64,000 nucleotides of DNA from Peristeroidobacter soli (GTDB taxonomy: Bacteria > Pseudomonadota > Gammaproteobacteria > Steroidobacterales > Steroidobacteraceae), in contig NZ_RYEV01000004.1 of NCBI RefSeq assembly GCF_004138485.1, positions 1,238,803 through 1,302,802 on the forward strand, in the 5' to 3' direction. The notes beneath the pieces were generated by a model that worked only from the letters and a program-made list of their open reading frames with translations, was not told the DNA's origin and did not search any database. Position 1 is the stretch's first letter; each line of letters starts with the position of its first letter. Of the stretch, positions 15,972 to 62,770 are shown piece after piece. The position numbers were made by a program, and so were the translations under genes.

Positions 15972-15999
15972 AGACGCAGTCTCCGGGCTCAGCCGCAGC
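15972..15999 (-). promoter_or_regulatory. ECF-like promoter upstream of the 13.7-15.9 kb receptor
   Basis: Minus strand: GCTGCGG (15993-15999), 12 bases, then ACTGCGTCT (15972-15980). The spacing is identical to the other members of the set, and the -35 differs by one base from GCTGAGG at the sox operon. The CGTCT end lies 45 bases before the ATG. Confidence 0.6.
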
Positions 16000-16035
16000 G
16001 GCCTAGCCATTCGGTTAGGTACGACTCGCAGGGGG

Positions 16036-19000
16036 TCAGTGGAGCAATTTCACGTTGTCGTCCAGATTGCGTTCGATGAAGTTGTGATAGGGATCGACCA
16101 CCACGGCACCCGGCCGTTCGTTCACGATGAACTCGACCTGGGTTCGTTCGGCATCGATCCAGCGGCGCTCCGAGGCCAGCCACCGGGCGCTGTAACGATC
16201 GCCGCGGTTGATTTCCTCATCGACCACGGCGATCTGCACGGGTTCGTGAAGCGGCACGGACTGCTCGCTGCCCTCCGCGGTCCGCTCCATCTTTTTTGTA
16301 TGGATCGTGGCGATGACCTTGAAACGCCCGCCGGACAGGGTCTCGACGCGCGCCTCGCTCACGCTCAGATCGTGCAGCAGGATGCGCTCGAAATAATCGG
16401 TCAAGGTCTGCTGATACTGTTCCGGGGTGTGCGCGCGAATGATCGCCAACAGGTCGAGCGAAGTTGGATACGGCCCGCTGGCGAACGCCCACTTTGCAAA
16501 ATACTCGCGCAACGCCTGGTTCAACGCCTGTTCGCCGATCAACTCCTTGACGCCGTAGATCACCGGCGCACCCTTCCAGTAATGCACGTAATCGGTATCC
16601 GAACGCGAGCGATAGATCGGCACCTCGGCGAACTTGGATTTATTCCGGTCCGCGTTGTACTTCTTGATACTTTCTCGCAAAAAGCGCGCGACCATGGCTT
16701 TGTCGTAGGACTTCTCCAAGGTCATCAGGCCGGCGTATTGCGCGAGCGTCTCCTGGAGCATGGTCGCGCCTTCGACTTTGGCGGAGGTCACCATCAGGCC
16801 CCACCAGTTGTGGCCGGCTTCGTGGCCGACCACGTGCGTGCCCCAATCCACCGCGGAGTTCTTGCTCAGGTCGCTGACGAAGCCGGCGAACTCGCCCAGG
16901 GTCAGCTGACCCGAGTTGGAATTGGCGCCGGCGTCGAACGCTTTCTGGATGAGCCGGAACTCCGGGTACGGGAACGGTCCGAACTCGGCGGTGAAATATT
17001 CCACGGCGATCTTGAAATGCTTCATGAACTCCGCGACATGAAAATCGTCCGGCGGGTTGTAATAGATGGCGAGGTCGATGCCGGCGGCACGATCGCGCAA
17101 CACCCGGTACGCGCCCTGTTGCAAGGTCAGCGCCAGCGAGATGGGCGTTTTCGACCTGTAATGAAAGAACGCCCGATCGCCCTGCTGCCAGCTGCGCACC
17201 AGCTCGCCGCCCATGAAGGCCACCTGGCCTTTGTCGACGCTGTACGTGCCTTCGAAATCGATGTTGTCGCTCTGACCGAACAAGCCATTGAAGTCGCGCC
17301 CCCAAGGCTCATCCAGCGTGGCGATGTGCGCGCGATCCTCGGGCAGGCCGTGCTTCGCGCGTTTCCTCGGGTCGCCCAGCGCGCTGTAGGACGAATAGCC
17401 GAGCACGTCCGGCATCACTTCCGACAGCGACAGAGCGGTGCCGCTGGTCTCCAGCCGGCTGCTGAGTTGTCCGCCAGGAAAATTCGAGAAGTCCACGTCC
17501 AGATCGAAGCGCACGGTACGCGTCTCGCCCGGCTGCATCGGCGAGGTAAAGCGGTAACGTGCCACATGAATATCGGCAAAGTCTTGGTCGACGACACCGC
17601 CCTCGACGCTCAGCTGCTTGACCTTCGCCAGCGGCGTGAGCGCCACATACAAAGTGTCGAAGGGCCGGTCGTGTTTGTTTCGAAGCACGATCTCGCCGCG
17701 GGACGTTGCACGTCGCGTCTGCAGATCGGTCGATAGATCCAGTCGCACCGACTTCATGACCGGCAGCGGCTTGTTCTCCAGCGGCCGCATCACCTGCTCG
17801 TAACGTAGCTGAGTCGCATCGGTCACGGCGTCGCTCGGCGGGATGGGATTGTCGACATAGTCTTCGACATACAGCCAGCGGCCGATCCCGGCGAACGCCA
17901 CCAAGCTGATCGCCAATGTGGCGGCCTGCGGCACACCGATGCGTCGCTTTGCCACGCGCAGGCGTTTGGCGATCCCCTCGTCCGTGCCCCGCCGCCACAA
18001 CAGATGCGAGAGCATCACCAGCACGGCCGACAGCGCCGCCCAATACAAATCGTATTTCAATCCTTCCAGTCGATAGAACGTGCTGTTCGCGAGCCCCGAG
18101 ATCGGGCTGGTCGGATGCGAGCCCGGCACCACCAGCGAGGGCATGTCGAACAAGGTCGAGCTGGCCAGGCTCACGGCGATATAGATCACCATGAACAGCA
18201 TGCCCAGATATTTGTTCGGCGACAGCACCTGGCCGATCAGCGCCAGCGCACCGACCCACAGGAACGGCAGCACGCGATATCCCATCTCCCGTAAATACAT
18301 GCTCGCATCGATGGGCGTGCCCTTGATCAGCTGCAGGATCACCATGGCGGCGATCGACACGGCCAGCAGCGCCGCCACCACGGTCCACAGCGCCAGCAGT
18401 TTGGATAACAGGAACACGGTATTACGCGCCGGCATCGCATCGACGATCTGGTCGAGCTTGACCTGTCGCTCACGCCACACCAGCTCGCCCGCGTAGTACG
18501 CGATCACGATCAGCAGCGGCAGGGTGAGACCGTCGCCCAGCGACTTGACGGCCACCCGTGTCAGCAACAACGGCGGCGCGCCGAACACCGGATCGACCAG
18601 CGAAGCGAGCGCCCAGGCATTGACGAAGCCGAGGATCATCAGCACCACGAACGGGATCGAACGGACCACCGCACGCACTTCGAGCCCGACGCGTCCGACC
18701 AGCTGCTGCCAGGCGGTGTTCCGGTCGTGCACCTGAGTTGCAATCGGTCGCTCGTCGACGTTTCGTTGCCCGGTCTCGGCGGGAACGTTTGCTTTGATCT
18801 GCGGGCTGCGCGGATAGGGATTGAACCGCACCAGTGTCCACGCCATCGCGGCGACGCCAACACCGAGCCAGATCAGGCGATTCCACAAGAACGTACCGGC
18901 GAGCGGCGCGAGCTGAGTGTTGAGCTCATAGGGCGTCCAATAGCGTGTGGTCAGATTCAGCGTGCTGATACCGAACAGATCCACCAGGAACACGAACGGC

Positions 19001-19596: not shown

Positions 19597-19599
19597 CGC

Positions 19600-27241: not shown

Positions 27242-27269
27242 AGACGCAGGCGGGAGAATCATCCTCAAC
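27242..27269 (-). promoter_or_regulatory. ECF-like promoter of the S9 peptidase/sigma/fecR unit
   Basis: Minus strand: GTTGAGG (27263-27269), 12 bases, CCTGCGTCT (27242-27250). The -35 and the CCTGCGTCT block are identical to those of the amidase operon. The CGTCT end lies 39 bases before the ATG. Confidence 0.75.
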
Positions 27270-31239: not shown

Positions 31240-31267
31240 AGACGCAGGCAGGACAGCGAGCCTCAAC
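31240..31267 (-). promoter_or_regulatory. ECF-like promoter of the amidase/S9 operon
   Basis: Minus strand: GTTGAGG (31261-31267), 12 bases, CCTGCGTCT (31240-31248). It is a perfect match in both blocks to the promoter at 27242-27269. Confidence 0.78.
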
Positions 31268-31323: not shown

Positions 31324-31409
31324 ACGGCGATTGACGGCCGGTGGAGATTGGCTCCGTTCGAGCCGTACGGCGATTGAGGGCCCGCTGGGGATTGGCCCCG
31401 GTCCTGCGT
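31324..31409 (+). repeat. 43-bp imperfect tandem duplication covering a promoter
   Basis: Copy A (31324-31366) and copy B (31367-31409) both start ACGGCGATTGA and align over 43 bases with one single-base gap and about nine mismatches. Copy B contains the functional-looking GCTGGGG-N12-CCTGCGTCT promoter. Copy A has the matching GGTGGAG but lacks CGTCT. Confidence 0.7.
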
Positions 31410-31411
31410 CT
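31384..31411 (+). promoter_or_regulatory. ECF-like promoter of the unknown gene/POT transporter operon
   Basis: Plus strand: GCTGGGG (31384-31390), 12 bases, CCTGCGTCT (31403-31411). The -10 block is exact; the -35 differs from GTTGAGG at two positions. The ATG at 31422 is 10 bases after CGTCT. Confidence 0.65.
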
Positions 31412-36469: not shown

Positions 36470-36497
36470 AGACGCGGCCCGAGCCGCGACCCACAAC
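36470..36497 (-). promoter_or_regulatory. ECF-like promoter of the GGT-like/amidohydrolase operon
   Basis: Minus strand: GTTGTGG (36491-36497), 12 bases, GCCGCGTCT (36470-36478). The CGTCT end lies 37 bases before the GTG start. Its -35 abuts that of the divergent MFS promoter. Confidence 0.75.
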
Positions 36498-39590: not shown

Positions 39591-39602
39591 GGCGGGAGAT
39601 CC

Positions 39603-41666: not shown

Positions 41667-41677
41667 GAAGTGGGTCG

Positions 41678-47618: not shown

Positions 47619-47646
47619 TTGCGGATTCACCGGGGTAGGCTATTCT
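47619..47646 (+). promoter_or_regulatory. Candidate housekeeping-type promoter of folD
   Basis: TTGCGG (47619-47624), 16 bases, TATTCT (47641-47646). This is a weak sigma-70-like match, but its -10 overlaps the palindromic operator at 47645-47662, as expected for a repressed promoter. Confidence 0.35.
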
Positions 47647-47662
47647 GTACACAACTGTATGG
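47645..47662 (+). promoter_or_regulatory. Probable TetR operator at folD
   Basis: CTGTACA (47645-47651), 4 bases, TGTATGG (47656-47662), ending 7 bp before the folD ATG. The right arm is identical to that of the operator at 53399-53416, and the left arm matches its CCATACA at five of seven positions, with the same 4-base spacer. Confidence 0.6.
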
Positions 47663-47669: not shown

Positions 47670-48563
47670 ATGAGCGCCAGAATCATCGATGGAGTCCAGC
47701 ATGCCCGGCGCTTGCGCGCCGGCCTGGCGACGGAAATTGCCGACTTCGTGGCGCGCACTGGCGTCCGGCCCAAACTCACGGTCATCCTGGTCGGGACCGA
47801 CGCCCCTTCCCGGCTCTATGTTTCCAACAAGGCGAAAGCATGCCGCGATGTCGGCATCGAGTCGGCGACGGTCGAGTTGCCCGCCTCGATCACGCTGCCA
47901 GAACTGCTTGCCGTCATCGATGCCGCCAATGAGGACAACGCCGTCCACGGCATCCTCATGCAATTGCCGTTGCCAGCGCATTTACCGGTGCGCGCCGTGC
48001 TCGAGCGCATCTCGGTCGACAAGGATGTGGATGGGTTCCACATGTACAACGTCGGCGGCCTGGTGCTGGGCTCGACCGTGTTCTCGCCATGCACGCCGTT
48101 TGGCGTGCAGAAACTGTTGGAAGCCGAGCAGATTCCCATCGCCGGGCAGAACGTCGTCGTGGTCGGCGCCAGCAACATCGTCGGCAAACCGACCGCGCTG
48201 ATGCTCATGCAGCGCGACGCCACTGTTTGTATCTGCCACGCGAAGACGCGCGATCTGGCTCAATTCACCATTCTGGCCGACATCCTGGTGGTCGCCGCGG
48301 GCCGGCCCAATCTGATTCTGGCGCCGATGGTGAAAACCGGCGCCGTGGTCATCGACGTGGGCATCAACCGGCTGCCCGATGGACGCATCGTCGGCGATGT
48401 CGATTTCGACGCCGTGCGCCGCAAGGCGTCGCACATCACACCCGTGCCCGGTGGTGTTGGCCCCATGACCATCACCATGCTCCTGCACAACACCTTGGTG
48501 GCGGCGCGCGCCTTGAGCTCAGAACTTCCGGCTCACGACGGCGCCGAACGTGCGCGGCTCTAG
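47670..48563 (+). CDS. folD: Bifunctional methylene-THF dehydrogenase/methenyl-THF cyclohydrolase
   Basis: A 297-residue FolD: it interconverts 5,10-methylene-THF, 5,10-methenyl-THF and 10-formyl-THF with NADP. Diagnostic motifs are SRLYVSNKAKACRDVGI with the catalytic Tyr and Lys, the Rossmann segment VVVGASNIVGKPTALMLM, and PVPGGVGPMTITMLLHNT. ATG at 47670 follows a TetR-type palindrome by 7 bp. With the sox operon and purU it completes the route from sarcosine-derived methylene-THF to formyl-THF and formate. Its last 45 bp overlap the 3' end of the convergent receptor gene, adding the tail SSELPAHDGAERARL. Confidence 0.96.
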   Translation: MSARIIDGVQHARRLRAGLATEIADFVARTGVRPKLTVILVGTDAPSRLYVSNKAKACRDVGIESATVELPASITLPELLAVIDAANEDNAVHGILMQLPLPAHLPVRAVLERISVDKDVDGFHMYNVGGLVLGSTVFSPCTPFGVQKLLEAEQIPIAGQNVVVVGASNIVGKPTALMLMQRDATVCICHAKTRDLAQFTILADILVVAAGRPNLILAPMVKTGAVVIDVGINRLPDGRIVGDVDFDAVRRKASHITPVPGGVGPMTITMLLHNTLVAARALSSELPAHDGAERARL

Positions 48564-50791: not shown

Positions 50792-50819
50792 AGACGCAGC
50801 GTATGCGTCGACCCACAAC
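50792..50819 (-). promoter_or_regulatory. ECF-like promoter of the 48.5-50.8 kb receptor
   Basis: Minus strand: GTTGTGG (50813-50819), 12 bases, GCTGCGTCT (50792-50800). The CGTCT end lies 35 bases before the ATG. The -35 equals that of the GGT-like operon at 36491-36497. Confidence 0.78.
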
Positions 50820-50830: not shown

Positions 50831-52822
50831 CTAGCGAGGCACGCTCCCGAAATATTTCAAGAACCAGTCGACGTAGCGCGTGGTGGCATCGAGCACTTCT
50901 GGAAACGAACGGATGCCGTGGCCGGCCGTGGGATAGGTCACGAGCACCGACTCGACGCCCTGCTCCAGCAGTGACCGATGAAACTCCAACGCCTGCGTCG
51001 GCGGCGTGTTCTGGTCCAGCGCGCCCGTGAGCTGCAACGTCGGCGTGCGCACACGGCTGGCATGCATCGACGGGCTGCGCTCGAAATAGTGGCCGCCGGG
51101 TTGATCCGGTTTGCCCTTCAGAAACATGGCATCGAAGTGCGGGATCTGCGACGTGCGATGCTGGCTGTACCAGTTGCTGACGCAGCTGATGGGAGCCGCG
51201 GCAGCGAAGCGCGTGTCCTGCGTGATCAGCCAGGCGGACATGAAGCCACCGTAACTGATGCCAGTCACGCCCAAGCGCTTGGGATCGGCGGTGCCATTCG
51301 CGACCAGCGCATCCAGTCCGGTGAGATAGTCGTACGTGTCCTCACCGCCCATGTCGCCGGCCACGTGTCGCGCGAAGGCCTGCCCACGGGCGCTGCTGCC
51401 TCGGGGATTGGGATAAAACACCGCGATGCCGTGATCGGTGAGCAACTTGGCGCCGCGCAATCGTCCTTGCCAGCGATTGCGATGACTCCACACCGGCCCG
51501 CCATGAATATCCATCACGACCGGCATCGGCCGGTCGACCGCGGGCTTCACCAGCCAGCCGTGGATTTCCAGGCCATCGCGGCCACGCCACATGACCGGTG
51601 CGATGTGCGCCTTGGCCGCTTCACGCTTCGGCCTGGCATCGAGCGACAGCATCACTTCGTAGTGACCGTCGCGAATCAGCACGATTTCCGGCGCGACCTC
51701 GTAGGCTTCGCCGACAGCGACGCAGCCACCCGAGGCCAAGGGCCATACCACGGGATACCAATTGCCGAACGTGCGATCGGTGCCGGCCCATTGCTCGGCG
51801 GCCTTGCCGGTCTCGACATCGACTTCGCCGACCACGGTCTCGAAAGCACGATGACCGGTGAACATCAGGTGACGCTCGTCGCGCCAGGCGACGTGCGTGA
51901 CATCGACGCCCGCGGTGTCGATGGTACGAACCCTGCCCGTAACGGTATCGATCAGCTTCAAGTCGCCGCAGACGATCAGGCGATCGCTGCACACGGCCTC
52001 GATGATCGCGACTCTGCGCCCGGCCGGCGATCCTGCCGGCACGCCAATCTGATCCGACGGCGTGAACAAAACATGCGACTCGCCGCCGCTCAGATCGAAC
52101 GATGTCAATTGCGCGCGATACCACGATCCCTCGCTGTGAGAACGCGAGGTGACGGCGGCGATGCGCTCATTACCCACCCACGTCGCTTCCCAGGGATTGA
52201 TACCGTCCATGGCCAGCGCAGCCATCTGCTCCGCCTCGACTCGGAATACAAACAAGCGGCGCCACAGATTCGCCGCGTCGCCGGTATCGACCGTGGGCAT
52301 CCATGCTGGCAACTGCGCGGACTGCGCCTGGCTGAAGGTGGTGTTGCCGCCCTGACAGCCCGCCAGATCCGCGCCGAAGCCCGCCACCAGCAACAGAATG
52401 CGCTGACCGTCCGGCGACCATTGCAATGCTTCGATGATGCCGTCGACGGCAGGCGCCGCTCGCACGTCGCTGCCATCGCCGCGAGCCAGATGGAGTTGGA
52501 AATTTCCCGCCTGGGCGCGATCCGAAATGAACGCCAGCCACGCGCCGTCCGGCGACCAGCGAGGCAGGCGATCGCTGCCATTGCCGGCTTCGACCCGCGA
52601 GAGCTTGCGACTCGTGAGATCCAGCAAACAAACCCGAGTGAGCGGCGCGCGCGACAGGTCTTCGTGCAGCGTGCCGGTGAATGCGACTCGCCCACCATCG
52701 GCGGAAGCGGCGAGGTCCGCCGCATCGACAATCCTGTCCTGTCCGACCGCGTTCAAGGTCCGGAAATAGTCGCAGACCTTGCCATACAGTTGTGTCTGTC
52801 TGATGTCCCGATCCACGCTCAA
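50831..52822 (-). CDS. Cytoplasmic S9-family acylaminoacyl-peptidase-like enzyme
   Basis: A 663-residue S9 peptidase with no signal peptide. The propeller shows PRWSPDGAWLAFISDR, LQWSPDGQRILLL and VTHVAWRDERHLMFTG. The hydrolase domain has HGGPVWSHRNRWQG (oxyanion region), nucleophile motif GISYGG, acid in GALDQNTPPTQ and His in TAGHGIRSFPE. The TTG start at 52822 overlaps the sigma stop as TTGA; a GTG two codons later is also possible. Translational coupling of a sigma factor to a peptidase is unusual and suggests that the peptidase works on, or limits, the peptide signal. It would digest peptides imported by the POT carrier. Confidence 0.88.
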   Translation of the reverse strand: MSVDRDIRQTQLYGKVCDYFRTLNAVGQDRIVDAADLAASADGGRVAFTGTLHEDLSRAPLTRVCLLDLTSRKLSRVEAGNGSDRLPRWSPDGAWLAFISDRAQAGNFQLHLARGDGSDVRAAPAVDGIIEALQWSPDGQRILLLVAGFGADLAGCQGGNTTFSQAQSAQLPAWMPTVDTGDAANLWRRLFVFRVEAEQMAALAMDGINPWEATWVGNERIAAVTSRSHSEGSWYRAQLTSFDLSGGESHVLFTPSDQIGVPAGSPAGRRVAIIEAVCSDRLIVCGDLKLIDTVTGRVRTIDTAGVDVTHVAWRDERHLMFTGHRAFETVVGEVDVETGKAAEQWAGTDRTFGNWYPVVWPLASGGCVAVGEAYEVAPEIVLIRDGHYEVMLSLDARPKREAAKAHIAPVMWRGRDGLEIHGWLVKPAVDRPMPVVMDIHGGPVWSHRNRWQGRLRGAKLLTDHGIAVFYPNPRGSSARGQAFARHVAGDMGGEDTYDYLTGLDALVANGTADPKRLGVTGISYGGFMSAWLITQDTRFAAAAPISCVSNWYSQHRTSQIPHFDAMFLKGKPDQPGGHYFERSPSMHASRVRTPTLQLTGALDQNTPPTQALEFHRSLLEQGVESVLVTYPTAGHGIRSFPEVLDATTRYVDWFLKYFGSVPR

Positions 52823-53352
52823 CCCTCGCTGTACTCGACGCCTGCGTTACGCAGAGCCGCGGTTGCCTGACTCACGTGCTTCTCGACCATGCTGACGGAA
52901 ATTCCCATCTGCGCGGCGATCCGGGCGTGCGACCAGGCCTCCAGTCGATATAACAAGAATGCCTCGCGTGTGCTGGGCCGCAGCTTAGCCAGCGTCTGCG
53001 CGACGATGCCGATCATCTGCATGGATTGCACGACGCTGGAGGGCTCGCCCTCCCCCATGTCGGAGAGCTGCACGTCGCCGGCCGGCACGGCCTGGCGCAT
53101 CATGCGGGTGTAAGTGCGCCGGCTGCGGTCCTTGACCAGATTGCAGGCCATCTTGAACGCGAAGGCCTTGAAGCTGCGAATCTCGCTGGGCGCGCCCATG
53201 CGCCACAGTCGCAGAAAAATCTCTTGAACCAGATCCTCGGCATCATCCAGCGAGCGCGTCTGTTGCGCGAGGAATGCGCGTAACGGCGCATCGAGCCCCC
53301 GGAACACATCGGTCATTCGCTCGCTGGCCATTCTTTCAGCTGCCACCGCCAT
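52819..53352 (-). CDS. ECF sigma factor without a FecR partner
   Basis: A 177-residue FecI-like sigma factor: region 2 (DDAEDLVQEIFLRLWRMG, MACNLVKDRSRR) and region 4 (LRPSTREAFLLYRLEAWSHARIAAQMGISVSMVEKHVSQATAAL). ATG at 53352 is chosen; ATGs at 53331 and 53316 are alternatives. Unlike the other three sigma genes in the window it is followed by a peptidase, not fecR, and no anti-sigma gene is nearby. Its control must therefore lie elsewhere: two palindromes of the TetR type sit upstream at 53399-53464. It is the best candidate to read the RYTGWGG-N12-SCYGCGTCT promoters, one of which lies directly after its operon. That assignment is inference. Confidence 0.85.
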   Translation of the reverse strand: MAVAAERMASERMTDVFRGLDAPLRAFLAQQTRSLDDAEDLVQEIFLRLWRMGAPSEIRSFKAFAFKMACNLVKDRSRRTYTRMMRQAVPAGDVQLSDMGEGEPSSVVQSMQMIGIVAQTLAKLRPSTREAFLLYRLEAWSHARIAAQMGISVSMVEKHVSQATAALRNAGVEYSEG

Positions 53353-53398: not shown

Positions 53399-53416
53399 CC
53401 ATACAATTCTGTATGG
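53399..53416 (-). promoter_or_regulatory. Perfect TetR-type palindrome upstream of the sigma gene
   Basis: CCATACA (53399-53405), ATTC, TGTATGG (53410-53416): 7-bp arms in perfect inverted symmetry with a 4-base spacer. It matches the folD operator in right arm and spacing. It lies 47 bp upstream of the chosen sigma start. Confidence 0.65.
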
Positions 53417-53446: not shown

Positions 53447-53464
53447 CCGTACAGAAGTGTTTAG
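53447..53464 (-). promoter_or_regulatory. Second, degenerate TetR-type site
   Basis: CCGTACA (53447-53453), GAAG, TGTTTAG (53458-53464). The left arm matches CCATACA at six of seven positions and the right arm matches TGTATGG at five of seven. Centre-to-centre distance from the perfect site is 48 bp. Confidence 0.4.
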
Positions 53465-53506: not shown

Positions 53507-54865
53507 TCAGAGAGCGGCGATGAGCACGGCGCAGATGGCGACCGGGCAGATGAATGCGAGCAGGATCCGGCAGCACCGGCGCAGGATCGGCGCGTCCACG
53601 GCCAGCTCCTGCTCGCCCAACGATGCCGGCAGGCGCCAGCCGATGAAGGCGCAGGTGAGCAAGGCGCCGACCGGCAACAGGATGTTGGAAGAAACGAAGT
53701 CGACGACATCGAACACGGTCTTGTGTTGAAACAGCGAGGTCCACGCCAGCGGGTGCCAGTCCTTCCACACGTTGAACGACAGCACGCTGCCCAGCCCCAG
53801 CCCCCAGACGATCGCGACCGAGCAGAACACCGCCTTGGGGCGCGAATAGCCACGACGTTGCTGAAGCCACGCGACCACGGGCTCCAGCCCCGCGATGGTC
53901 GGCGTCAGCGCGGCGAGCACCAGCAACAGAAAGAACAACGTTCCCACCAACTGCCCCGCGGGCATTTCCACGAACGCGGTCGGAAGCACGTTGAAGACCA
54001 GGTCCGGCCCTTGCGCGGGATTCAAGCCATATTGAAAGACCAGCGGAAACACCATGGCCGTGGCCAGCACCGACACGGTCACGATCGAGGCACTGATCAA
54101 CAGCGCGGAGCGAACCAGCGACACGTTGTTCGGCACATACGCGCCATACGCCAGCATGATCGCCATGCCCACACCGGTCGCATAGAACGCCTGACCGATC
54201 GCGGCGAGCACCAGGTCCGCCGAGAGCTTGCTCAGATCGGGCTGAAACGCGAATGTGAGACCGCGCACATCGCCCTGCACCAGCGCATAACCCACCAACG
54301 CCAGCAACAGAATGAGCAGCCCCGGCGCCCGCACCTTGTTCGCGATCTCGACGCCGCGATTCAATCCTCGCGCCGAAATCCAGCCGACGATGACCAGAAA
54401 CAACAGGTGCCAGAAGCCCAGTTGCCAAGGGCTCGCGAGGAAGCCCGAGAAATGCTCGGCGATCTCGGGTCGTGACAGCCCCATGATCTGACCGGAGGCG
54501 CACTTCCATGCATACGCGATCACCCAGCCGGCGATCACGGTGTAGCTCGAAATGATCAGCACACAGGCAATCGTGCCCAGCACGCCGATCCAGTTCCACG
54601 AGCGTGAGTAACCGAAAGTCGTCGCGAGGTGCCCCGCAGCCTCCGGCGGGCTCTGTCGCGATCTGCGGCCGATGATGAACTCGGCGACCAGCAGCGGCGT
54701 CGCGATCGCCACGCAGGCAAGGATGAACACCAGTAAGAACGTGCTGCCGCCATTGGTTCCCGCCAGATACGGGAACCGCCAGATGCTACCCAATCCCACC
54801 GACGCGCCCACTGCCGCGAGGTTGAAAGCAAACCATGAAGACCATCGGCCGCTGGTGGAACTCAT
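53507..54865 (-). CDS. Neurotransmitter:sodium symporter (NSS/SNF) family transporter
   Basis: A 452-residue LeuT-fold sodium symporter. Helix 1 carries the signature VGASVGLGSIWRFPYLAGTNGGSTFLL at about residues 18-44, followed by a charged loop (FIIGRRSRQSPPEA); 11-12 helices follow. Family members take up amino acids, betaines or related N-methyl compounds with sodium. It is the last gene of the soxBDAG-purU unit, 21 bp after purU, so sarcosine, glycine or dimethylglycine are reasonable substrates by context. Confidence 0.92.
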   Translation of the reverse strand: MSSTSGRWSSWFAFNLAAVGASVGLGSIWRFPYLAGTNGGSTFLLVFILACVAIATPLLVAEFIIGRRSRQSPPEAAGHLATTFGYSRSWNWIGVLGTIACVLIISSYTVIAGWVIAYAWKCASGQIMGLSRPEIAEHFSGFLASPWQLGFWHLLFLVIVGWISARGLNRGVEIANKVRAPGLLILLLALVGYALVQGDVRGLTFAFQPDLSKLSADLVLAAIGQAFYATGVGMAIMLAYGAYVPNNVSLVRSALLISASIVTVSVLATAMVFPLVFQYGLNPAQGPDLVFNVLPTAFVEMPAGQLVGTLFFLLLVLAALTPTIAGLEPVVAWLQQRRGYSRPKAVFCSVAIVWGLGLGSVLSFNVWKDWHPLAWTSLFQHKTVFDVVDFVSSNILLPVGALLTCAFIGWRLPASLGEQELAVDAPILRRCCRILLAFICPVAICAVLIAAL

Positions 54866-54886: not shown

Positions 54887-55738
54887 TCAGGAGCGCAACA
54901 CGACGGTACGATTGCCGGTGACGAAGATGCGATGCTCGGCGTGCCAGCGCACGGCGTTGTTCAGCACCATGGCTTCGAGGTCGTGGCCGATCTCGACCAG
55001 ATCCTCGGGCTGCTGCGTGTGATCGACGCGCTGGACGTTCTGTTCGATGATGGGACCTTCATCCAGATCCGCGGTGGCATAGTGCGCGGTGGCGCCGATG
55101 ATCTTCACGCCGCGCTCGTAGGCTTGATGATAGGGCCTGGCGCCCTTGAAGCCTGGCAGGAACGAGTGATGAATGTTGATGCACCGGCCGGCCAGCCGCC
55201 GACAGGTCTCATCCGACAGCACCTGCATATAGCGGGCGAGCACCAGCAGTTCCGCGCCGGTGGACTCGAACAGGTGAAGGATTCGCGCCTCCTGTTCCGC
55301 CTTCGCGCCGGGCTCGATGGGATAGTGATGAAACGGCAGCCCGTACCACTGCGTGAGCCGCTCGTGCGTGGCGTGATTCGACACGACGCCGACGATGTCG
55401 ATGGGCAACGTGCCGATGCTCCAGCGATGCAACAGGCTGTTGAGGCAGTGCCCTTGCTTGGACACCGCCACCAGCACCTTGCAGCGACGCTCCGCTTCAT
55501 GCAGGCCCCAGTCCATTCCGTACCGCTCGGCCGTGACCGCGAACTCCTGGCGCAGCGTATCCAGCGACGGCAACGTGTCGCCTTTGAACATGGTCCGCAT
55601 GAACGAGCGTTGCGACAACGCATCGACGAAGTGCGCCGCTTCGATGATGGAACCGGAGCGCTCGGCGATGAAACCGGAGATCGCGGCGACGATCCCGGTG
55701 CGGTCGGGACAGGAAATGGACAGCGTGAACTGGGGCAT
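54887..55738 (-). CDS. purU: Formyltetrahydrofolate deformylase
   Basis: A 283-residue PurU: hydrolyses 10-formyl-THF to formate and THF. An N-terminal ACT domain (FTLSISCPDRTGIVAAISGFIAE) precedes the formyltransferase-fold catalytic domain with INIHHSFLPGFKGARPYHQAY and GATAHYATADLDEGPIIEQ, which hold the catalytic Asn, His and Asp. The ATG at 55738 starts exactly at the family N-terminus; longer in-frame upstream sequence is noise. It is 5 bp after soxG. In sarcosine oxidase operons purU recycles THF from the C1 units released by demethylation. Confidence 0.96.
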   Translation of the reverse strand: MPQFTLSISCPDRTGIVAAISGFIAERSGSIIEAAHFVDALSQRSFMRTMFKGDTLPSLDTLRQEFAVTAERYGMDWGLHEAERRCKVLVAVSKQGHCLNSLLHRWSIGTLPIDIVGVVSNHATHERLTQWYGLPFHHYPIEPGAKAEQEARILHLFESTGAELLVLARYMQVLSDETCRRLAGRCINIHHSFLPGFKGARPYHQAYERGVKIIGATAHYATADLDEGPIIEQNVQRVDHTQQPEDLVEIGHDLEAMVLNNAVRWHAEHRIFVTGNRTVVLRS

Positions 55739-55743
55739 GATAC

Positions 55744-56235
55744 TCAACGATTCAAGAAAGGATCGCGCAGCGCATGGGTCAGCCATTGACCGAGGTAGTC
55801 TGCAAAGCTGCGGTCGTAATAAAGATCGAACGACGTCTCGTGATGGCGATGCGCCACCACCGGCACGGCTGCGAATCGAGTGCGCGTGCATCGAGTGGAC
55901 CAATCGATACCCGCCCCCATCGACAACAGCGCCGGCGCGGTCTCACCTCGAACCGTGGCGCAATTGAGCCCCGCCGATACATCCACTGCGTGATGTCTCA
56001 CGGTCGCGAACTCGCTGGCACACATCGCGATCAGCTTTTCCGCCGACAGCTGATCGCTCACCAGCAGCCACTGATCCGGTCCCAGCGACAGCACCGTCAC
56101 CTCGCCCGACGTCTTCGCCTCGAGCATGCCCGGCAGCCCATATCGCACGGCCTCGTTCGCCGCCGACATCCCTATACGCAAACGAACCTTGGCCCGCCGC
56201 GGATGCGCGTCCATCTCGACCAGTCTGTCAGCCAT
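55744..56235 (-). CDS. soxG: Sarcosine oxidase gamma subunit
   Basis: A 163-residue gamma subunit of heterotetrameric sarcosine oxidase. It has the short GcvT-like fold with LRIGMSAANEAVRYGLPGM, VLSLGPDQWLLVSD, HHAVDVSAGLNCATVRGETAPALLSMGAGIDW and the terminal YYDRSFADYLGQWL. Its start overlaps the soxA stop by 8 bp and purU follows after 5 bp. The gamma subunit is structural and contacts alpha. Identification rests strongly on operon position because this family diverges quickly. Confidence 0.88.
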   Translation of the reverse strand: MADRLVEMDAHPRRAKVRLRIGMSAANEAVRYGLPGMLEAKTSGEVTVLSLGPDQWLLVSDQLSAEKLIAMCASEFATVRHHAVDVSAGLNCATVRGETAPALLSMGAGIDWSTRCTRTRFAAVPVVAHRHHETSFDLYYDRSFADYLGQWLTHALRDPFLNR

Positions 56236-59191
56236 TCATGCGCTCTCCGGCAGGGTCGAAAAACGCAGGCTTGACCACTCGGGCCTGCAGTGTGCGCCCC
56301 TCATCGAAAACAGTGACGATCTCATCGATGCGCGCATGACCTCGTTCCAGCAACCCCAAGCCGATCGACCGTCCCAGCGTGGGACTGAAAGCCGCCGACG
56401 TAACGAATCCCTGGCTACGCTTGGGTGACGTAGAAATGACGTGCGCGCCAGCCACCAGCGAGGCCCCCGCCTCCACCGGTTCCAAGCCCACGAACTGACG
56501 TCGCGAGGTCTCCTGATCGGCGGTGCGCAACAGCGAGCGACGACCGACGAAGTCGCCGGCCTTTTTCTGGACCATGGCACCGAAGCCCAGGTCCAGCGGA
56601 TTGGTGGTGCCGTCGGTGTCCGATCCCACGTGCAGAAAGCCCTTCTCCAAACGCAGCACCAGCCAGGCTTCGAGCCCGATGGGCGCGATGCCGAGCTGCG
56701 CCCCCCGCTGCATCAGCTCGTCCCAGAACGCTTCGGCCTCGTTGGCGGGAACACTGATTTCATAACTCAGCTCGCCGGTGAAGCTCACGCGCTGAACACG
56801 CGCACGCCGGCCTGCAAGCTGCCCTTCCCGATAGTTCATGTGCGGGAACGCGGCGGCGGAGAAATCGATATCGCCCGGCAACTGCTGCAACAGAGTCCGC
56901 GCCGCTGCGCCGGCCAAGGTGAGCACGGCCCACTGCGTCGTCACCGGCATCAACACCAGATCGAGATCCGGCCATTCGCATTGATGCCACTCTTCGAGCC
57001 AGCCGGCGATGCGCTCGGCATTGGCGCCCGTGGTGCTGACCAGATAATGCTCGGGCGACAGACATGCGAACACGCCGTCATCGATGACGATGCCATTCTC
57101 GTTGAGCATCAGCCCGTAGCGCACTTTGCCCGGCTGCAGCGAAGTGACATTGTTCATGTAGATGCGATGTAAGAAGCGTGCGGCATCGGGGCCCCGCACT
57201 TCGATCTTGCCGAGCGGCGAACCTTCGAACAGACCGAGCGCCGTGCGCACCGCTTGCACTTCGCGGTTGATCGCCGCTTCGCGAGTCTCGGCGCCACGCA
57301 AGTAACAAGCCGGACGTTTCCATCCGCCGTAGTCGTCGAGCTGTGCACCGTGCCTGACATGCCAGCGATGCGCCGGCATATGACGCGGCGGTACATACAG
57401 ATCGCCCGTGGCGCCGCCGGCAATGGCACCGAACGTCACCGGCATGAACTGCGGCCGATAGGTGGTCGTGCCCAGCGTTTCGATCCCACGCCCGGTCAGA
57501 TCCGACAGCACGGCCAGTGCATTCAGATTGCTGGTCTTGCCCTGATCGACGGCCATACCGTTGGTGGTGTAGCGCTTCAAGTGCTCGACCGCGACGAAGT
57601 TTTCGCGAACCGCCAGCTCGATGTCGGACGTGGTCACGTCGTGCAACAGGTCCACCCATTGCCGTGCCGCTGAAGCCTGCGGCGCGCGACGAACGGCGCG
57701 GATTCCATTCGTCTCCGATCGATGCTCGCGACCTGCGTCTCTTGGCACAGGTCGGCTCTCGGCCGCCGCTTCTCGTCCCGCGTGAGTGCCGCTCGCGATC
57801 GCGCTCGAAACTGCAAACTCCGCATTCGCGGCGCCGACGATCCGCACGCGCTGACGACAATTGTCAGGAAGAATGCAGGCCAGCGACGAGTCGTAGCGCA
57901 CCTTGCCGCCGGCCTGTGAATACAGATGCACCGTCGGATTCCAGCCGGAGGACACGGCCAGCGCATCGCACGGAATCCAAACCCGGTTGGCGCCGAGACT
58001 GCGACCGTCGTTGGCGAGTTCATCGACCGCAACGGCTTTCAACGTGGTCGAACCGCGCGTGTCGACGACCATGGAAGAGCGAAGCACCTTGATGCCTCGT
58101 TGCTGGATACCCTCTTCAATGTTTCGCGCCGCGTTCGTCCGGGCATCGACGACTGCGGCGACCTCGATACCCGCATCATGCAGGTCGAAAGCCGTTCGAT
58201 ACGCATCGTCATTGTTGGTTGCAATCACCGCGCGACGGCCGGCGGCCACGCCATAGCGATTCAGATAAGTCCGCATCGCGCCTGCGAGCATGATGCCGGG
58301 ACGATCGTTATGAGCGAATACGAGCGGCTGCTCGATGGCGCCCGTGGCGAGCACGACCTCGCGCGCACGGATGATCCAGAACCGTTGTACCGATCCGTCC
58401 GGATGTTCTTTATCGGACAGGTCGAGCGCGGTGAGCACGTTGTGATCGTAGTAGCCGGCCACCAGCGTTCGCTTCAGGATCCGGACGCGAGGCGCGCGTG
58501 CAAGCTCGCTCACCGCGGCGTCGATCCAGCTCTTGGCGGTCCGACCTTCAACCTGCACTCGTTCGTGCAGCGCTCGTCCGCCGAGTTCGCCATCCTGTTC
58601 GATCAGTGCCACTTGCGCACCTGCACGGCTCGCTTCCAATGCTGCCGCGAGACCGGCAATACCCGCACCGACGACCAGCACGTCGCAACGCAAGTGATGC
58701 CGGAAGAACGAGGTCTTGTCGTCGCCGGTCGGCAAGGTGCCGAGGCCCGCCATGCGACGGACCGCATCCTCATAGGTGTGCCAGTTCGGCCACTTGAACG
58801 TCTTGTTATAAAAGCCGGCCGGCAGCAACCCGTGCACGCGGTCGAAGATGCGGCCCAGATCGAAGTCGACGCTGGGAAAACAATTCTCGCTGGTGACGAC
58901 CATGCCCTCCACCAGCGGCTGCAGGGTCGCACGCACCAGCGGCACGGCCAGACCGTCGATCTCGACCCGCAGCAGCGCATTGGGCTCTTCGACACCGGCC
59001 GAGAAAATGCCGCGAGGACGGTGATATTTGAAACTGCGCGAAACGACGCTGATGCCGTTGGCCAACAGCGCCGACGCCAGCGTATCGCCAACGTGACCGA
59101 CCAGCGCGCGGCCATTGAAAGTGAACGACACCTTGCGCGCGCGGTCCAGCTGCCCCCCCTTCTCCACCCGATGGGCGCCGGAGCGGCTCAT
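56228..59191 (-). CDS. soxA: Sarcosine oxidase alpha subunit
   Basis: A 987-residue alpha subunit, the usual length. The N-terminus has the 2Fe-2S-like ubiquitin fold remnant (VSFTFNGRALVGHVGDTLASALLANG). An NAD-binding domain follows (CDVLVVGAGIAGLAAALEASRAGAQVALIEQDGELGG near residue 170), then a second dinucleotide motif around ATGAIEQPLVFAHNDRPG. The C-terminal GcvT-type THF-binding domain (GLFEGSPLGKIEVRGPDAARFLHRIYMNNV) is where formaldehyde is transferred to THF to give 5,10-methylene-THF. ATG at 59191 overlaps the soxD stop as ATGA. Confidence 0.95.
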   Translation of the reverse strand: MSRSGAHRVEKGGQLDRARKVSFTFNGRALVGHVGDTLASALLANGISVVSRSFKYHRPRGIFSAGVEEPNALLRVEIDGLAVPLVRATLQPLVEGMVVTSENCFPSVDFDLGRIFDRVHGLLPAGFYNKTFKWPNWHTYEDAVRRMAGLGTLPTGDDKTSFFRHHLRCDVLVVGAGIAGLAAALEASRAGAQVALIEQDGELGGRALHERVQVEGRTAKSWIDAAVSELARAPRVRILKRTLVAGYYDHNVLTALDLSDKEHPDGSVQRFWIIRAREVVLATGAIEQPLVFAHNDRPGIMLAGAMRTYLNRYGVAAGRRAVIATNNDDAYRTAFDLHDAGIEVAAVVDARTNAARNIEEGIQQRGIKVLRSSMVVDTRGSTTLKAVAVDELANDGRSLGANRVWIPCDALAVSSGWNPTVHLYSQAGGKVRYDSSLACILPDNCRQRVRIVGAANAEFAVSSAIASGTHAGREAAAESRPVPRDAGREHRSETNGIRAVRRAPQASAARQWVDLLHDVTTSDIELAVRENFVAVEHLKRYTTNGMAVDQGKTSNLNALAVLSDLTGRGIETLGTTTYRPQFMPVTFGAIAGGATGDLYVPPRHMPAHRWHVRHGAQLDDYGGWKRPACYLRGAETREAAINREVQAVRTALGLFEGSPLGKIEVRGPDAARFLHRIYMNNVTSLQPGKVRYGLMLNENGIVIDDGVFACLSPEHYLVSTTGANAERIAGWLEEWHQCEWPDLDLVLMPVTTQWAVLTLAGAAARTLLQQLPGDIDFSAAAFPHMNYREGQLAGRRARVQRVSFTGELSYEISVPANEAEAFWDELMQRGAQLGIAPIGLEAWLVLRLEKGFLHVGSDTDGTTNPLDLGFGAMVQKKAGDFVGRRSLLRTADQETSRRQFVGLEPVEAGASLVAGAHVISTSPKRSQGFVTSAAFSPTLGRSIGLGLLERGHARIDEIVTVFDEGRTLQARVVKPAFFDPAGERMNG

Positions 59192-59523
59192 GACAGACTT
59201 CCTTCGCTCGTACGCACGCGCTTCGGTTGCGCTTCGCGCGCCGGCGTCACTTCGGACAGCTGCGGCTTCGCGGCGCCCATGAGATAGACCGCGAGGATCT
59301 CGTGCGTCACGGTGTCGCGTGCCACGTTGAACCAGCGGCCGCAGCCGTACGAATGCAGCCAGCGCTCGTAGGCGATGCCTTTCGGATTGATACGATTGAA
59401 CAAGTAGTCCGCCCAGACACGATCGTCGACGTCGAGCGCGGGGCGAGTCACGTGCGACTCGCCGCCGAAACGAAATTCTTCTTCGTCGCGCACGCCGCAG
59501 TAAGGACAAGAGATTTGTAACAT
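59188..59523 (-). CDS. soxD: Sarcosine oxidase delta subunit
   Basis: A 111-residue zinc-binding delta subunit. Cys6 and Cys9 (CPYC) together with His57 and Cys61 in WLHSYGCGRWF fit the known Cys-Cys-His-Cys zinc site. The FGGE, RPALDVDDRVWADYLFNRINPKG and NVARDTVTHEILAVY segments are typical of the family. The last 30 residues are a charged tail longer than the core needs. Its start overlaps the soxB stop by one base (TGATG) and its stop overlaps soxA by four, so the subunits are translationally coupled. Confidence 0.95.
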   Translation of the reverse strand: MLQISCPYCGVRDEEEFRFGGESHVTRPALDVDDRVWADYLFNRINPKGIAYERWLHSYGCGRWFNVARDTVTHEILAVYLMGAAKPQLSEVTPAREAQPKRVRTSEGSLS

Positions 59524-60767
59524 CAGTGAGCCACTCCAGCCGCCGCGCCTTCATCGATCAGCGCGCCGCTGGTGAAGCGCTCCAGGCCGAACTTCGCGAT
59601 CAAGGGATGGGCTTTGCCCGTGGCCACGGTATGCGCCATGGTGTCGCCACCCGCCGGGATCGCCTTGTAACCTCCGGTGCCCCAGCCACAGTTGACATAG
59701 AGCCCGGGCACGGGCGTGCCGCCCATGATGGGTGTCGTGTCGGGTGTGATGTCGACGATGCCCGCCCACTGGCGCATCAAGCGCAACTGACGGAAGGCCG
59801 GGAACAGTTCGAGCAACGCGGTGACGTTCTGATAGAAGGCCGGCAGACCGCCGCGCTGCGCGTAGCTCGTGTAGATGTCCGCGCCGCCGCCGAACACCAG
59901 TTCGCCGCGATCGGATTGACTGACGTACATGTGCACCGTCGGCGACAGCACGACAGTATCGAGGCAGGGCTTGATCGGTTCGCTCACCATCGCTTGCAGC
60001 GCCATGCTGCTGATGGGCAAACGCAGCCCCAGCTTGCCGGCGAGCACAGTGGAGTGACCCGCCACAGACAGGACGACACTGCCCGCGGCAATCGTGCCCT
60101 GAGAAGTCTCTACGCCGACGACACGCTCGCCCTGCCGGCAAAACCCCGTGACTTCACATTGCTGAATGATGTCGACGCCCAGGGCATTGGCACCGCGCGC
60201 GTAACCCCATGCGACGGCATCGTGTCTGGAAATGCCGCCGCGTCGCTGGATGAATCCGCCGTGCACGGCAAAGCGTGCCTCCATATTCATGAGCGGCACC
60301 AGCTTCTTGATCTCCTCGGGCGTCATCAGCTCCGAGTCGATGTCGTTCACCTGAATGGCATTGGCCCAACGACGCAGACTCTCCAGCTCATGATGACTGT
60401 GCGCCAGGGTCAGGATGCCGCGCTGACTCAACATCACGTTGAAGTTCAGATCGCGACTGAGCCCCTCGTAGAGCTGGAGCGAGTGTTCGTAGAACGCCGC
60501 GCTCTCCGGCCAGAAATAGTTGGACCGCGTGACCTGCGTGTTGCGCCCGGTATTGCCGCCGCCCAGCCAGCCTTTTTCCAGCACCGCGACGTTGCGGATG
60601 CCATGCTTCTTGGCCAGATAGTAGGCGGTGGCGAGCCCGTGGCCGCCGGCGCCTACGATGACGACATCGTAGGCTTTGCGGGGCGTGGGGCTGCGCCATG
60701 CCTGGCTCCAGCGCCGGTGTCGTCCCAGCGCGCCGGAGAGCAAGGAAAAGAACGAGTAGTGATGCAT
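59523..60767 (-). CDS. soxB: Sarcosine oxidase beta subunit
   Basis: A 414-residue FAD/FMN subunit that oxidises sarcosine to glycine. The FAD motif is VVIVGAGGHGLATAYYLAKKHG at about residues 35-56. GRNTQVTRSNYFWPESAAFYE and the C-terminal GWGTGGYKAIPAGG are typical, and GGISRHDAVAWG holds the His that carries covalent FMN in characterised enzymes. ATG at 60767 is chosen over a TTG 21 bases upstream because the ECF-like promoter ends at 60806. It is the first gene of soxBDAG-purU-NSS. Confidence 0.95.
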   Translation of the reverse strand: MHHYSFFSLLSGALGRHRRWSQAWRSPTPRKAYDVVIVGAGGHGLATAYYLAKKHGIRNVAVLEKGWLGGGNTGRNTQVTRSNYFWPESAAFYEHSLQLYEGLSRDLNFNVMLSQRGILTLAHSHHELESLRRWANAIQVNDIDSELMTPEEIKKLVPLMNMEARFAVHGGFIQRRGGISRHDAVAWGYARGANALGVDIIQQCEVTGFCRQGERVVGVETSQGTIAAGSVVLSVAGHSTVLAGKLGLRLPISSMALQAMVSEPIKPCLDTVVLSPTVHMYVSQSDRGELVFGGGADIYTSYAQRGGLPAFYQNVTALLELFPAFRQLRLMRQWAGIVDITPDTTPIMGGTPVPGLYVNCGWGTGGYKAIPAGGDTMAHTVATGKAHPLIAKFGLERFTSGALIDEGAAAGVAH

Positions 60768-60805: not shown

Positions 60806-60833
60806 AGACGCAGCAGCTGACTGTTTCCTCAGC
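60806..60833 (-). promoter_or_regulatory. ECF-like promoter of the sox operon
   Basis: Minus strand: GCTGAGG (60827-60833), 12 bases, GCTGCGTCT (60806-60814) followed by TA. The CGTCT end lies 38 bases before the soxB ATG, a spacing shared with both GGT-like genes, the 27.2-kb peptidase and the 50.7-kb receptor. Confidence 0.78.
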
Positions 60834-60911: not shown

Positions 60912-62705
60912 TCATATCCCGCCGGCGCGGCCCGCGCGGCGCGGGTCGGTGCTCGCACTGAGCAATCCCGTCTGCGGATCACGCCAGGCCTGCTGATAGG
61001 ACCCCATGTGGAAGTCGTAGGGCGGCAGCGGACTGAGCTTTGCGCCGATTCGTGCCAGGTCGCGCAACACCCGTTCCGGAATCCGCGTCTCGATCTCGAT
61101 CGTATTGTCGTCACGCATCGGCAACATGCGCGGCAGGACGGCGGCTTCGTACGGATCGTAGCTGTAATCGAGGACGTTCGACAGCATCTGCGGCACCGTG
61201 CAATGAACATTGCCGGGCGAGCCAAACGACAGATAAGGCTTGCCGTCCTTGAGCACCATGGTGTTGCTCATGACCGAACGCATCCGACTGCCCGGCACGC
61301 CCAGCCAGCCGGCGATCGCCGCCCCCATGTCGAACGCCGCGTGGCTGCCGATCATGGGCACGCCGTCGCACACCATTCCGGGAATGCCGCCCGACTGCAG
61401 CGTGTTCATCATCTGCGCCCAGTTGCCTTGCGCATCCACGCAGGTGAGCTCGCAGCTGCCCGACGGTTGTTTCGGTTTGGTATCCGGCCCCGACGCACTC
61501 CAGCCGAAGGCCTGCAGTTGCCCCCTGGCGGTGGTGAGCTCGATGTGCCGGGTGAGATCGACGTTGTTCTTCGGACGCGAGCGCTTGAGAATTTCCGCCA
61601 GGCGCGCGTGATAGTCCTCCGACATCCAGATGTCGAGCGGCACGTCGAAGAACTGCGGATCGTGCAGATGACCCAGTTCGAAATGGGCACGGCGCAGCGC
61701 GTGGCCCATGTAATAAAGACTGTCGGCCGACTCGCTGTAATGACCCAGCGAAGCAACATCCAGATGCTTCAGGATGCCGAGCACCAGGTTGCAATACAGG
61801 CCCTGACGCTCGGGCGGTGCCGGCTGCGCGATCTCGTAACCCTTGTGCCGATAGCGCAGCGGCTCCATCCAGCGCGGCGCATTCGCCGACAGATCCTCGA
61901 TCTTGATCTGCCAGCCCACCTGATGCGCCAGCTCCACGAAATGTCTGGCCCAGTCGCCGTGCGTGAAATATTCCGGGCCCTGGTCGGCCAGCTTGCGCAG
62001 CGTCTTGCCGAGCTCGGGATTCTTGAGCCGCTCGCCCACCGAAGGCGTGAAGCCATTGGGCGTATAGAGCGCCCGCATCGCTGGAAAATACGTGTTGCCG
62101 TCGAGCTCGAAATCCAGCACCGAGCGGGTGAATTCATCGAGCGGAAAGCCCTCCTCCGCCCACGGAATCGCCGGTTCGACCAGCGACGCCCAGGGGCGAC
62201 TGCCGAAACGCGTATGCATCGCCTGCATGCCGGGCATGAAGCCGGGAATGCACGCCATCGGCGGACCGGCCGCGACACCGCCCAGCCCCGGTGGATAGGT
62301 GCGCATCGGCGGCAAGTCGGGATGCAACGTGCCCATACTGTTCAAGTAATGCGTGGTGCTCGACTTCGCATCCCAATACAAACAACTCACCGTGCCGGTG
62401 TGGTTGGTCATGTCGATCTGCACGGTCGCTTGCGTGATCGAGCCGGCGATCACCGCATCCATGGCATTGCCGCCGGCCTTCAACACATCGAGCATGGTCT
62501 GCGTCACGATGGGATGCTGGCTGCTGGCGACGGCGCGCTTACCGCGCACCACTTCTTTGGGACCCTGACGAGACAGATCCTTGAGTGAGAATTGCCCATT
62601 CTGCGTGGAGCCACGGGCCGCGGCATCGGCGACCGAAGTGCCGGCGGCGAGGCCCGTTGCCACCAGGCCCGCGCCTCGGATGAATTGACGACGATCAGTA
62701 GCCAT
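60912..62705 (-). CDS. Tat-exported gamma-glutamyltransferase-family protein with divergent active site
   Basis: A 597-residue GGT-family protein with a twin-arginine signal (TDRRQFIRGAGLVATGLAAG), so periplasmic, unlike the copy at 34726-36432. It shares that copy's altered catalytic region: GSCEL (Ser417, Cys418) instead of Thr-Thr-His at the autoprocessing site, SVMSNTMVL at the substrate loop and GSPGNVHC at the oxyanion loop. Otherwise the fold is intact (ASSQHPIVTQTMLDVLKAGGNAMDAV, VDAQGNWAQMMNTLQ). It has its own ECF-like promoter and lies between the sox operon and a receptor gene. Amide or gamma-glutamyl hydrolysis is possible; standard transpeptidase activity is unlikely. Confidence 0.82.
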   Translation of the reverse strand: MATDRRQFIRGAGLVATGLAAGTSVADAAARGSTQNGQFSLKDLSRQGPKEVVRGKRAVASSQHPIVTQTMLDVLKAGGNAMDAVIAGSITQATVQIDMTNHTGTVSCLYWDAKSSTTHYLNSMGTLHPDLPPMRTYPPGLGGVAAGPPMACIPGFMPGMQAMHTRFGSRPWASLVEPAIPWAEEGFPLDEFTRSVLDFELDGNTYFPAMRALYTPNGFTPSVGERLKNPELGKTLRKLADQGPEYFTHGDWARHFVELAHQVGWQIKIEDLSANAPRWMEPLRYRHKGYEIAQPAPPERQGLYCNLVLGILKHLDVASLGHYSESADSLYYMGHALRRAHFELGHLHDPQFFDVPLDIWMSEDYHARLAEILKRSRPKNNVDLTRHIELTTARGQLQAFGWSASGPDTKPKQPSGSCELTCVDAQGNWAQMMNTLQSGGIPGMVCDGVPMIGSHAAFDMGAAIAGWLGVPGSRMRSVMSNTMVLKDGKPYLSFGSPGNVHCTVPQMLSNVLDYSYDPYEAAVLPRMLPMRDDNTIEIETRIPERVLRDLARIGAKLSPLPPYDFHMGSYQQAWRDPQTGLLSASTDPRRAGRAGGI

Positions 62706-62742
62706 GCAACTTCTCTCCGATGATTGAAACGCCTGCCGTCCA

Positions 62743-62770
62743 AGACGCGGCAGGCGGCCCTCGCCACAAT
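62743..62770 (-). promoter_or_regulatory. ECF-like promoter of the exported GGT-like gene
   Basis: Minus strand: ATTGTGG (62764-62770), 12 bases, GCCGCGTCT (62743-62751). The CGTCT end lies 37 bases before the ATG, exactly as for the GGT-like gene at 36432. Confidence 0.77.

Follow-up and report, generated by a model that had tools for sequence, protein, structure and literature searches.

A 64,000-nucleotide stretch of the Peristeroidobacter soli genome, hereafter the window (C3:1238803-1302802 of 9,374,132 bases, 9.37 Mb), carries a repeated two-block promoter element, RYTGWGG-N12-SCYGCGTCT, which is confined to this part of the genome and precedes genes of uptake and degradation. The element is conserved in other genomes together with a gene for an extracytoplasmic function (ECF) sigma factor (52819-53331 in the window); palindromes lie upstream of this gene, and no FecR gene neighbors it. 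The element is probably read by this FecI-like sigma factor and would define a local regulon in which a TetR-family repressor controls sigma transcription in place of FecR. Such regulons are of a known kind, and what is new is the wiring and the targets.

The exact pattern occurs eight times in the window and never in 100 shuffles. The same eight matches are the total for the whole genome (reversed-pattern control, 1+0). A looser form, RYTGDGG-N13-SYGCGTCT, has ten exact matches in the genome, all at C3:1266044-1310350 (control, 2+0). Because all ten fall within 45 kb, the regulon defined by the element is local and not dispersed, as a preliminary description of this DNA had called it; a genome-wide regulon is ruled out, with zero exact matches beyond the 45-kb stretch. 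When two mismatches were allowed, the genome gave 651 matches vs. 903 for the control. Versions of this kind are thus not enriched, and the signal is carried by the exact matches and by where they lie. With a matrix built from the ten sites, these reach 25.5-32.3 bits, compared with 16.4 bits for the best other place in 400 kb; this comparison is circular.

The eight promoter sites of the preliminary description are all present in the sequence (Table 1). Seven fit its pattern, whereas the site at 31384(+), with GCTGGGG, fails at W. Its list lacked 31937(+), an exact match, and a further site lies past the window edge at window coordinate 71521(-), with a DUF885 gene behind it (Pfam). Two variants had also been proposed. 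The one at 15972 holds up, as the 8th or 11th best place in 400 kb according to matrices derived from other genomes, and the one at 23069 scores only 0.8 bits and was dropped as a regulon promoter. The reported distance of 35-39 nucleotides (nt) from CGTCT to the start codon in five cases is correct (39, 37, 35, 38, and 37 nt for 27242, 36470, 50792, 60806, and 62743). Elsewhere, CGTCT lies 8 nt (31240 and 36499), 46 nt (31937), and 38 nt (the site beyond the window) from the called start. If transcription begins 6-9 nt past CGTCT, the two 8-nt sites, before the amidase and the MFS carrier, would yield nearly leaderless transcripts. At 31384 the distance is 10 nt, provided that open reading frame (ORF) 31422-31967 is real. 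This ORF has no Pfam match and no homolog at E<=1 in the fetched loci of relatives, and it was rejected as a conserved target. Sites 36470(-) and 36499(+) are arranged back to back, and like pairs are found in the genomes designated G129, G035, G020, and G039.

Table 1. Promoter sites, genes, and palindromes of the proposed regulon (window coordinates).
Feature	Position	Strand	Remarks
Probable promoter, GCTGCGG variant	15972..15999	-	Before TonB receptor 13686-15887; a site in G239 precedes the homologous receptor
Promoter	27242..27269	-	Before S9 peptidase 24776-27202, closely followed by FecI 24202-24768 and FecR 23123-24184
Promoter	31240..31267	-	Before amidase 29564-31231 (8 nt) and S9 peptidase 27282-29552
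Promoter-like site	31384..31411	+	Target ORF 31422-31967 doubtful
Promoter	31937..31964	+	Before POT carrier 32011-33486 (46 nt)
Promoter	36470..36497	-	Before GGT-family gene 34726-36432 and amidohydrolase 33479-34720
Promoter	36499..36526	+	Before MFS carrier 36535-37815; GTG start 8 nt past CGTCT
TetR-family repressor, proposed control of sigma gene and folD/tetR	46826..47518	-	Pfam TetR_N
Putative operator, tetR-folD intergenic	47645..47662		2 mismatches; rank 3
folD, divergent from tetR	47670..48563	+	Pfam
Promoter	50792..50819	-	Before TonB receptor 48519-50756
S9 peptidase directly behind sigma gene	50831..52816	-	Pfam
Operator-like palindrome just inside S9 gene behind sigma	52782..52799		2 mismatches; rank 4; similar place in G129
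FecI-like ECF sigma, 170 amino acids, no adjoining FecR; proposed promoter reader	52819..53331	-	Pfam Sigma70_r2/r4_2
Perfect palindrome CCATACAATTCTGTATGG, proposed TetR operator upstream of sigma gene	53399..53416		Rank 2 in 400 kb, matrix from relatives
Second, weaker putative operator upstream of sigma gene	53447..53464		3 mismatches; rank 5
SNF-type sodium symporter	53507..54811	-	Pfam
PurU-like formyltransferase-family gene	54887..55738	-	Pfam
soxB, soxD, soxA, soxG (tetrahydrofolate-linked sarcosine oxidase type)	55744..60767	-	Pfam DAO, SoxD, SO_alpha_A3/GCV_T, SoxG (SoxG weak)
Promoter	60806..60833	-	Before soxB; kept in 8/8 genomes with this sigma type
Promoter	62743..62770	-	Before GGT-family gene 60912-62705

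The sigma gene is flanked by the SNF gene and an S9 peptidase gene. Its product belongs to the ECF superfamily (TIGR02937, 70.4 bits vs. a cut-off of 42.9). It falls short of the FecI equivalog models NF041727 (60.5, cut-off 260) and NF007232 (60.7, cut-off 185), and is FecI-like only through kinship with FecR-linked sigma factors. The best 80 of at least 322 relatives in named genomes are at most 40% identical to it, and the typed neighborhoods are nearly all FecR-linked. Typing 67 sigma neighborhoods by BLAST, with five FecR references confirmed by Pfam, placed FecR within two genes in 54 and TetR in 5, with neither in 8. This sigma type itself is found in at least eight genomes from three families of one order, and none of the eight has FecR within two genes of the sigma gene; the neighbor typing gave TetR for five and nothing for P. 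soli (G000), G129, and G035.

Among 200 genomes of the same family, only G129 has a close homolog (88%), and it is also the sole other genome with many exact element matches (7). More diverged homologs in G035 (45%) and G020 (38%) are accompanied by two exact sites each, within approximately 5 kb of the sigma gene. At least one exact match occurs in 31 of the 200 genomes, mostly singly and unrelated to this sigma. A wider search at E<=1e-40 recovered only the P. soli genome among 369 of the class, and this genome plus G1120 and G1122 among 398 of the phylum. The G239 member scores 1e-41, near the cut-off, so more distant members would be missed at this threshold. Within the order, 61 of 396 genomes match at 1e-28, and since only part of these were inspected, the count of eight is a lower bound. 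The relative in G1122 is FecR-linked, and G1120 was scanned for the motif only.

A tree of the sigma factors comprised 60 labeled FecR, 8 of this system, and 5 with neither neighbor. G000, G129, and G035 were assigned to this system by hand, TetR being farther away, and six added FecI rows from P. soli were labeled FecR (five with a Pfam-checked FecR neighbor). Six of the eight sigma factors form one clade (95/95), with the placement of G039 and G239 unresolved; all eight group together in 31% of 200 bootstrap trees.

The element lies upstream of soxB in all eight genomes with this sigma type. In seven it shares a contig with the sigma gene, and in G039 the two are on different contigs. Four of the eight copies vary at the last base or at the base preceding GCGTC. 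Matches to soxB were present in 113 genomes, and as a control the 30 best loci were scored with a matrix that includes the P. soli site. All six loci from genomes with the sigma type carry the element (-62 to -74; 11.4-26.0 bits), and the 24 from genomes without the sigma type have none (maximum 2.7 bits). The called soxB start is 100 nt from the element in G035 and 140 nt in G265, and two more G239 sites lie approximately 300-360 nt before called starts; with such distances, some starts are possibly miscalled. The gene set is conserved as well. In the fetched neighborhoods of G129 (several contigs), G035, G020, and G167, the sigma gene is accompanied by sox, GGT, SNF, receptor, POT, and DUF885 genes, and smaller sets occur in G039 and in G239 and G265, which represent the two other families of the order.

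Sites from other genomes also predict those of P. soli. A matrix was made from 19 sites of G035, G020, G167, G039, G239, and G265, with the spacer columns zeroed and eight pattern matches without a plausible target omitted (G035 19310, two on G035 C10, G167 31055, G039 C18 6664, G039 C6 7934, G265 30070, and one on G265 C65). Although it holds no site from the same genus, the ten P. soli sites and 15972 are its best 11 places in 400 kb; rank 11 is 36470 at 15.6 bits, tied with one intragenic place. Adding seven G129 sites, with two intragenic G129 matches excluded, leaves a gap of 16.6 vs. 15.1 bits. Ten of these 11 places fall between genes and one overlaps a doubtful ORF at its end, whereas lower places are nearly all intragenic. 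The outcome that would have refuted the preliminary description, matrix matches as frequent within genes as before starts, thus did not occur in the 400 kb examined. The genome scan, the orthologous upstream regions of eight genomes, and the matrix without the own genus support the earlier proposal of ECF-type promoters that serve one uptake-and-degradation regulon. That proposal did not include the sigma gene, the tetR gene with its putative operators, or the use of this promoter class by FecR-linked FecI-like sigma factors.

The same promoter class occurs in FecR-linked relatives. Across 40 loci, most of them FecR-linked (683 kb in total; 14 included by hand, the FecR of G1120 unchecked, and L218 a duplicate of L106), [CT]TG[AT]GG-N14-NGCGTC has nine intergenic upstream matches and six others. 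Nine alternative spacings gave 0, 3, 0, 0, 0, 1, 0, 0, and 0 intergenic upstream matches. In L112 (Caulobacter), L130 (Sphingomonas), G074, and G1122, the element is located between fecR and the next large gene, which in G1122 encodes a TonB receptor (Pfam). A position between fecR and a receptor-sized gene is where a fecA promoter would be expected. Elements also precede M16 peptidases in G298 and G1122. Because this spacing-specific element recurs in FecR-linked loci, sigma 52819-53331 appears to have its promoter code in common with a subclass of FecI-like sigma factors. Sites of the form GGTGAGG...GCGTCT were also observed at L111 5912(+) (Acidovorax), where the site lies between FecI-like and FecR genes, and at L121 11569(+) (Janthinobacterium). 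P. soli has repeated FecI-FecR modules with receptor-sized genes nearby (window 1-12000, 23123-24768, and, to the left, C3:1224423-1232940), for which five FecR and five FecI proteins were confirmed by Pfam.

In the absence of a neighboring FecR, the membrane-bound anti-sigma factor usual in this family, the candidate regulator of the sigma gene is TetR, whose gene is divergent from folD. Homologs with a common FHQ[VI]GY stretch are encoded in all eight genomes with this sigma type. The tetR gene adjoins the sigma gene in five (G020, G167, G039, G239, and G265) and lies elsewhere in three, 5.3 kb away in P. soli, approximately 12 kb away in G035, and on another contig in G129. Palindromes resembling CCATACA-N4-TGTATGG occur upstream of the sigma gene in seven of the eight, perfect in P. 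soli and with 1-3 mismatches in G129, G035, G020, G167, G039, and G239. They are putative TetR operators. In G035, G020, and G167, a predicted promoter, TTGACA-N17-GATnCT, is followed approximately 4 nt later by the operator, and in G039 the operators overlap TTGACA-N17-GATAAC. A matrix of 11 operators from relatives has as its top five places in 400 kb an RND efflux promoter region, 53399, 47645, 52782, and 53447 (18.4-23.4 bits; next, 12.9).

Several observations weigh against this interpretation. The ten-site matrix finds no strong site at the TonB-dependent transporter genes 41678-43822 and 62786-65041, the hydantoinase genes, or two further GGT genes. A strict pattern, YTGWGG-N14-YGCGTCT, has 28 matches over the eight genomes vs. 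15 for the control; it is absent from G167, and its sole G039 match is outside the system. In P. soli it has nine matches, none of them outside the stretch (control, 7). The 24 control soxB genes that lack the element are also more distant homologs. The tree requires two changes for the eight sigma factors, and a single origin is not demonstrated. For the repressor, G265 has no operator at <=4 mismatches, and no good sigma70-like promoter is found at the sigma gene in P. soli or G129 (best, 7/12). The top place of the operator matrix is upstream of the RND efflux pair, which indicates that the palindrome is of a common type.

These points leave room for other explanations, of which a chance or housekeeping promoter pattern has next to no probability: two-mismatch versions are no commoner than the control, but the element is absent from shuffles, its exact matches in the genome fall in one stretch, and sites in other genomes predict it, so that this explanation is already refuted. 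It is very unlikely that the element is instead the bipartite site of a classical activator, such as the MalT-like LuxR protein (44085-46823) or an AraC-type regulator encoded just right of the window. Both regulators are present in the stretch and two fixed blocks might be half-sites, but neither block repeats the other, their spacing is fixed, and the element twice stands 8 nt before a start codon. Moreover, no homolog of the LuxR-MalT protein was recovered as best match in the fetched stretches of G129, G035, G020, G167, and G039, and the element also occurs beside FecI-FecR pairs elsewhere.

The many FecI-like sigma factors of the genome raise the question of whether another of them reads the promoters, with 52819-53331 as a passenger. 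FecI 24202-24768, behind site 27242, is one candidate, and FecI-FecR relatives employ the same promoter class. Yet the element tracks the 52819-53331 type and its gene set over eight genomes, and on the fetched contig of G129 the homologous S9 gene is not followed by a FecI gene. This alternative is improbable; FecI 24202-24768 would be a target or a member of a cascade. A different assignment of control deserves somewhat more weight, although it too is unlikely: the sigma factor would be the right one but be held by FecR or another anti-sigma factor encoded elsewhere, with TetR acting on folD and its own gene only. P. soli encodes several FecR proteins, TetR is not adjacent in three of the eight genomes, and an AcrR-like palindrome is also found at the RND pump. 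Against this stand the palindromes upstream of the sigma gene in seven of eight genomes, at predicted promoters in four, and the TetR homolog in all eight.

The genes of the proposed regulon give some indication of its substrate. Sox subunits with a folate-binding domain, together with FolD and a PurU-like enzyme, suit tetrahydrofolate-linked N-demethylation. Prolyl-type peptidases (S9; S15 in G035), an M19 dipeptidase (G020), POT carriers, and TonB receptors are in keeping with peptides that contain N-alkylated residues. A sarcosine-bearing peptide is perhaps the substrate, with a likelihood well short of even. The names lasso-peptide isopeptidase and Xaa-Pro dipeptidase were rejected, as they fall below cut-off; for the S9 peptidase behind the sigma gene, the Dpp5 and lasso-isopeptidase models score far below theirs.

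In the proposed mechanism, the element would serve as the -35/-10 promoter for sigma 52819-53331, which would drive approximately 11 local promoters for TonB receptors, S9 peptidases, an amidase, GGT-family hydrolases, POT and MFS carriers, and soxBDAG. TetR would bind the tetR/folD palindrome and those preceding the sigma gene, replacing control by FecR, until released by an inducer, which may be an N-methyl amino acid or an intermediate of one-carbon metabolism. The sigma factor would then accumulate, possibly aided by read-through from the upstream sox genes, and the cell would take up and degrade peptides with N-methylated residues. Carried further, a tentative and rather speculative scenario is that of a rewired surface-signaling sigma factor that lost FecR, kept its promoter code, and gained TetR as a cytoplasmic metabolite sensor. 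It might form a self-amplifying, product-sensing switch for foraging on sarcosine peptides, for example, nonribosomal peptides of competitors, which prolyl-type peptidases would cleave at N-methylated residues.

Compared with the FecI-FecR-FecA system, the likenesses are a FecI-like ECF sigma factor, the occurrence of the element between fecR and the large gene that follows it in four FecR-linked relatives, and TonB receptors among the targets, one of which (48519-50756) has site 50792 before it. Unlike that system, the sigma factor has no adjoining FecR, the repressor is of the TetR type, and the targets are peptide and sarcosine genes. Furthermore, the receptors at 13686, 41678, 48519, and 62786 have no STN domain (Pfam, E<=0.001); receptor 20495-23014 has one, but is located beside the other FecI-FecR pair. 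That a repressor controls a FecI gene has precedent, since Fur represses fecI in E. coli (PMC9249621). In the ECF203 group, as described in PMC8999054, an ECF sigma factor without an anti-sigma factor has a tetR gene in its neighborhood, and TetR control was proposed. The sigma factor discussed here likewise lacks a neighboring anti-sigma gene and has a tetR gene nearby; the named ECF203 example is from Streptomyces, the likeness is one of description, and section 3.1 of PMC8999054 gives no operator or regulon. Dedicated regulation of sarcosine and creatine catabolism is also known, with sarcosine genes under sigma54 and SoxR in Bacillus thuringiensis (PMC4941409) and AmtR, a TetR-family protein, acting on creatine genes in Corynebacterium (PMC8864220). 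These are other types of sigma factor and regulator, and the opening lines of the two abstracts mention no ECF sigma. In the titles and abstract openings of open-licence papers on ECF sigma factors with TetR, sarcosine oxidase and its control, FecI, and N-methylated peptides, no description of such a regulon was found.

A related sigma gene in G312 (L220 5469-20000) stands beside GGT, S9, M19, DUF885, and MFS genes. No TetR, no FecR, and no element at 10 bits were found at this locus, which is perhaps a third wiring. Within the window, hydantoinase/oxoprolinase A and B genes lie behind a TonB receptor (37818-43822, minus strand). At 16036-20463 (minus strand), a protein of 1186 amino acids joins ABC-2 membrane and M1 peptidase domains and adjoins an ABC ATPase. 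A tRNA-Met called by ARAGORN at 13165-13254 (plus strand) overlaps an esterase gene on the opposite strand and is probably a false match.

In a lineage with many FecI-FecR systems, a sigma factor and a promoter code can now be named and directly tested. The code, YTGWGG, 14 bases, and NGCGTC, is usable to annotate the regulons of a FecI-like subclass. If the interpretation is right, a FecI-type sigma factor has shifted from surface signaling to an internal repressor with its promoter code retained. Sarcosine oxidase, one-carbon folate enzymes, and peptide uptake would then belong to one regulon, which would point to an unrecognized class of nutrient.

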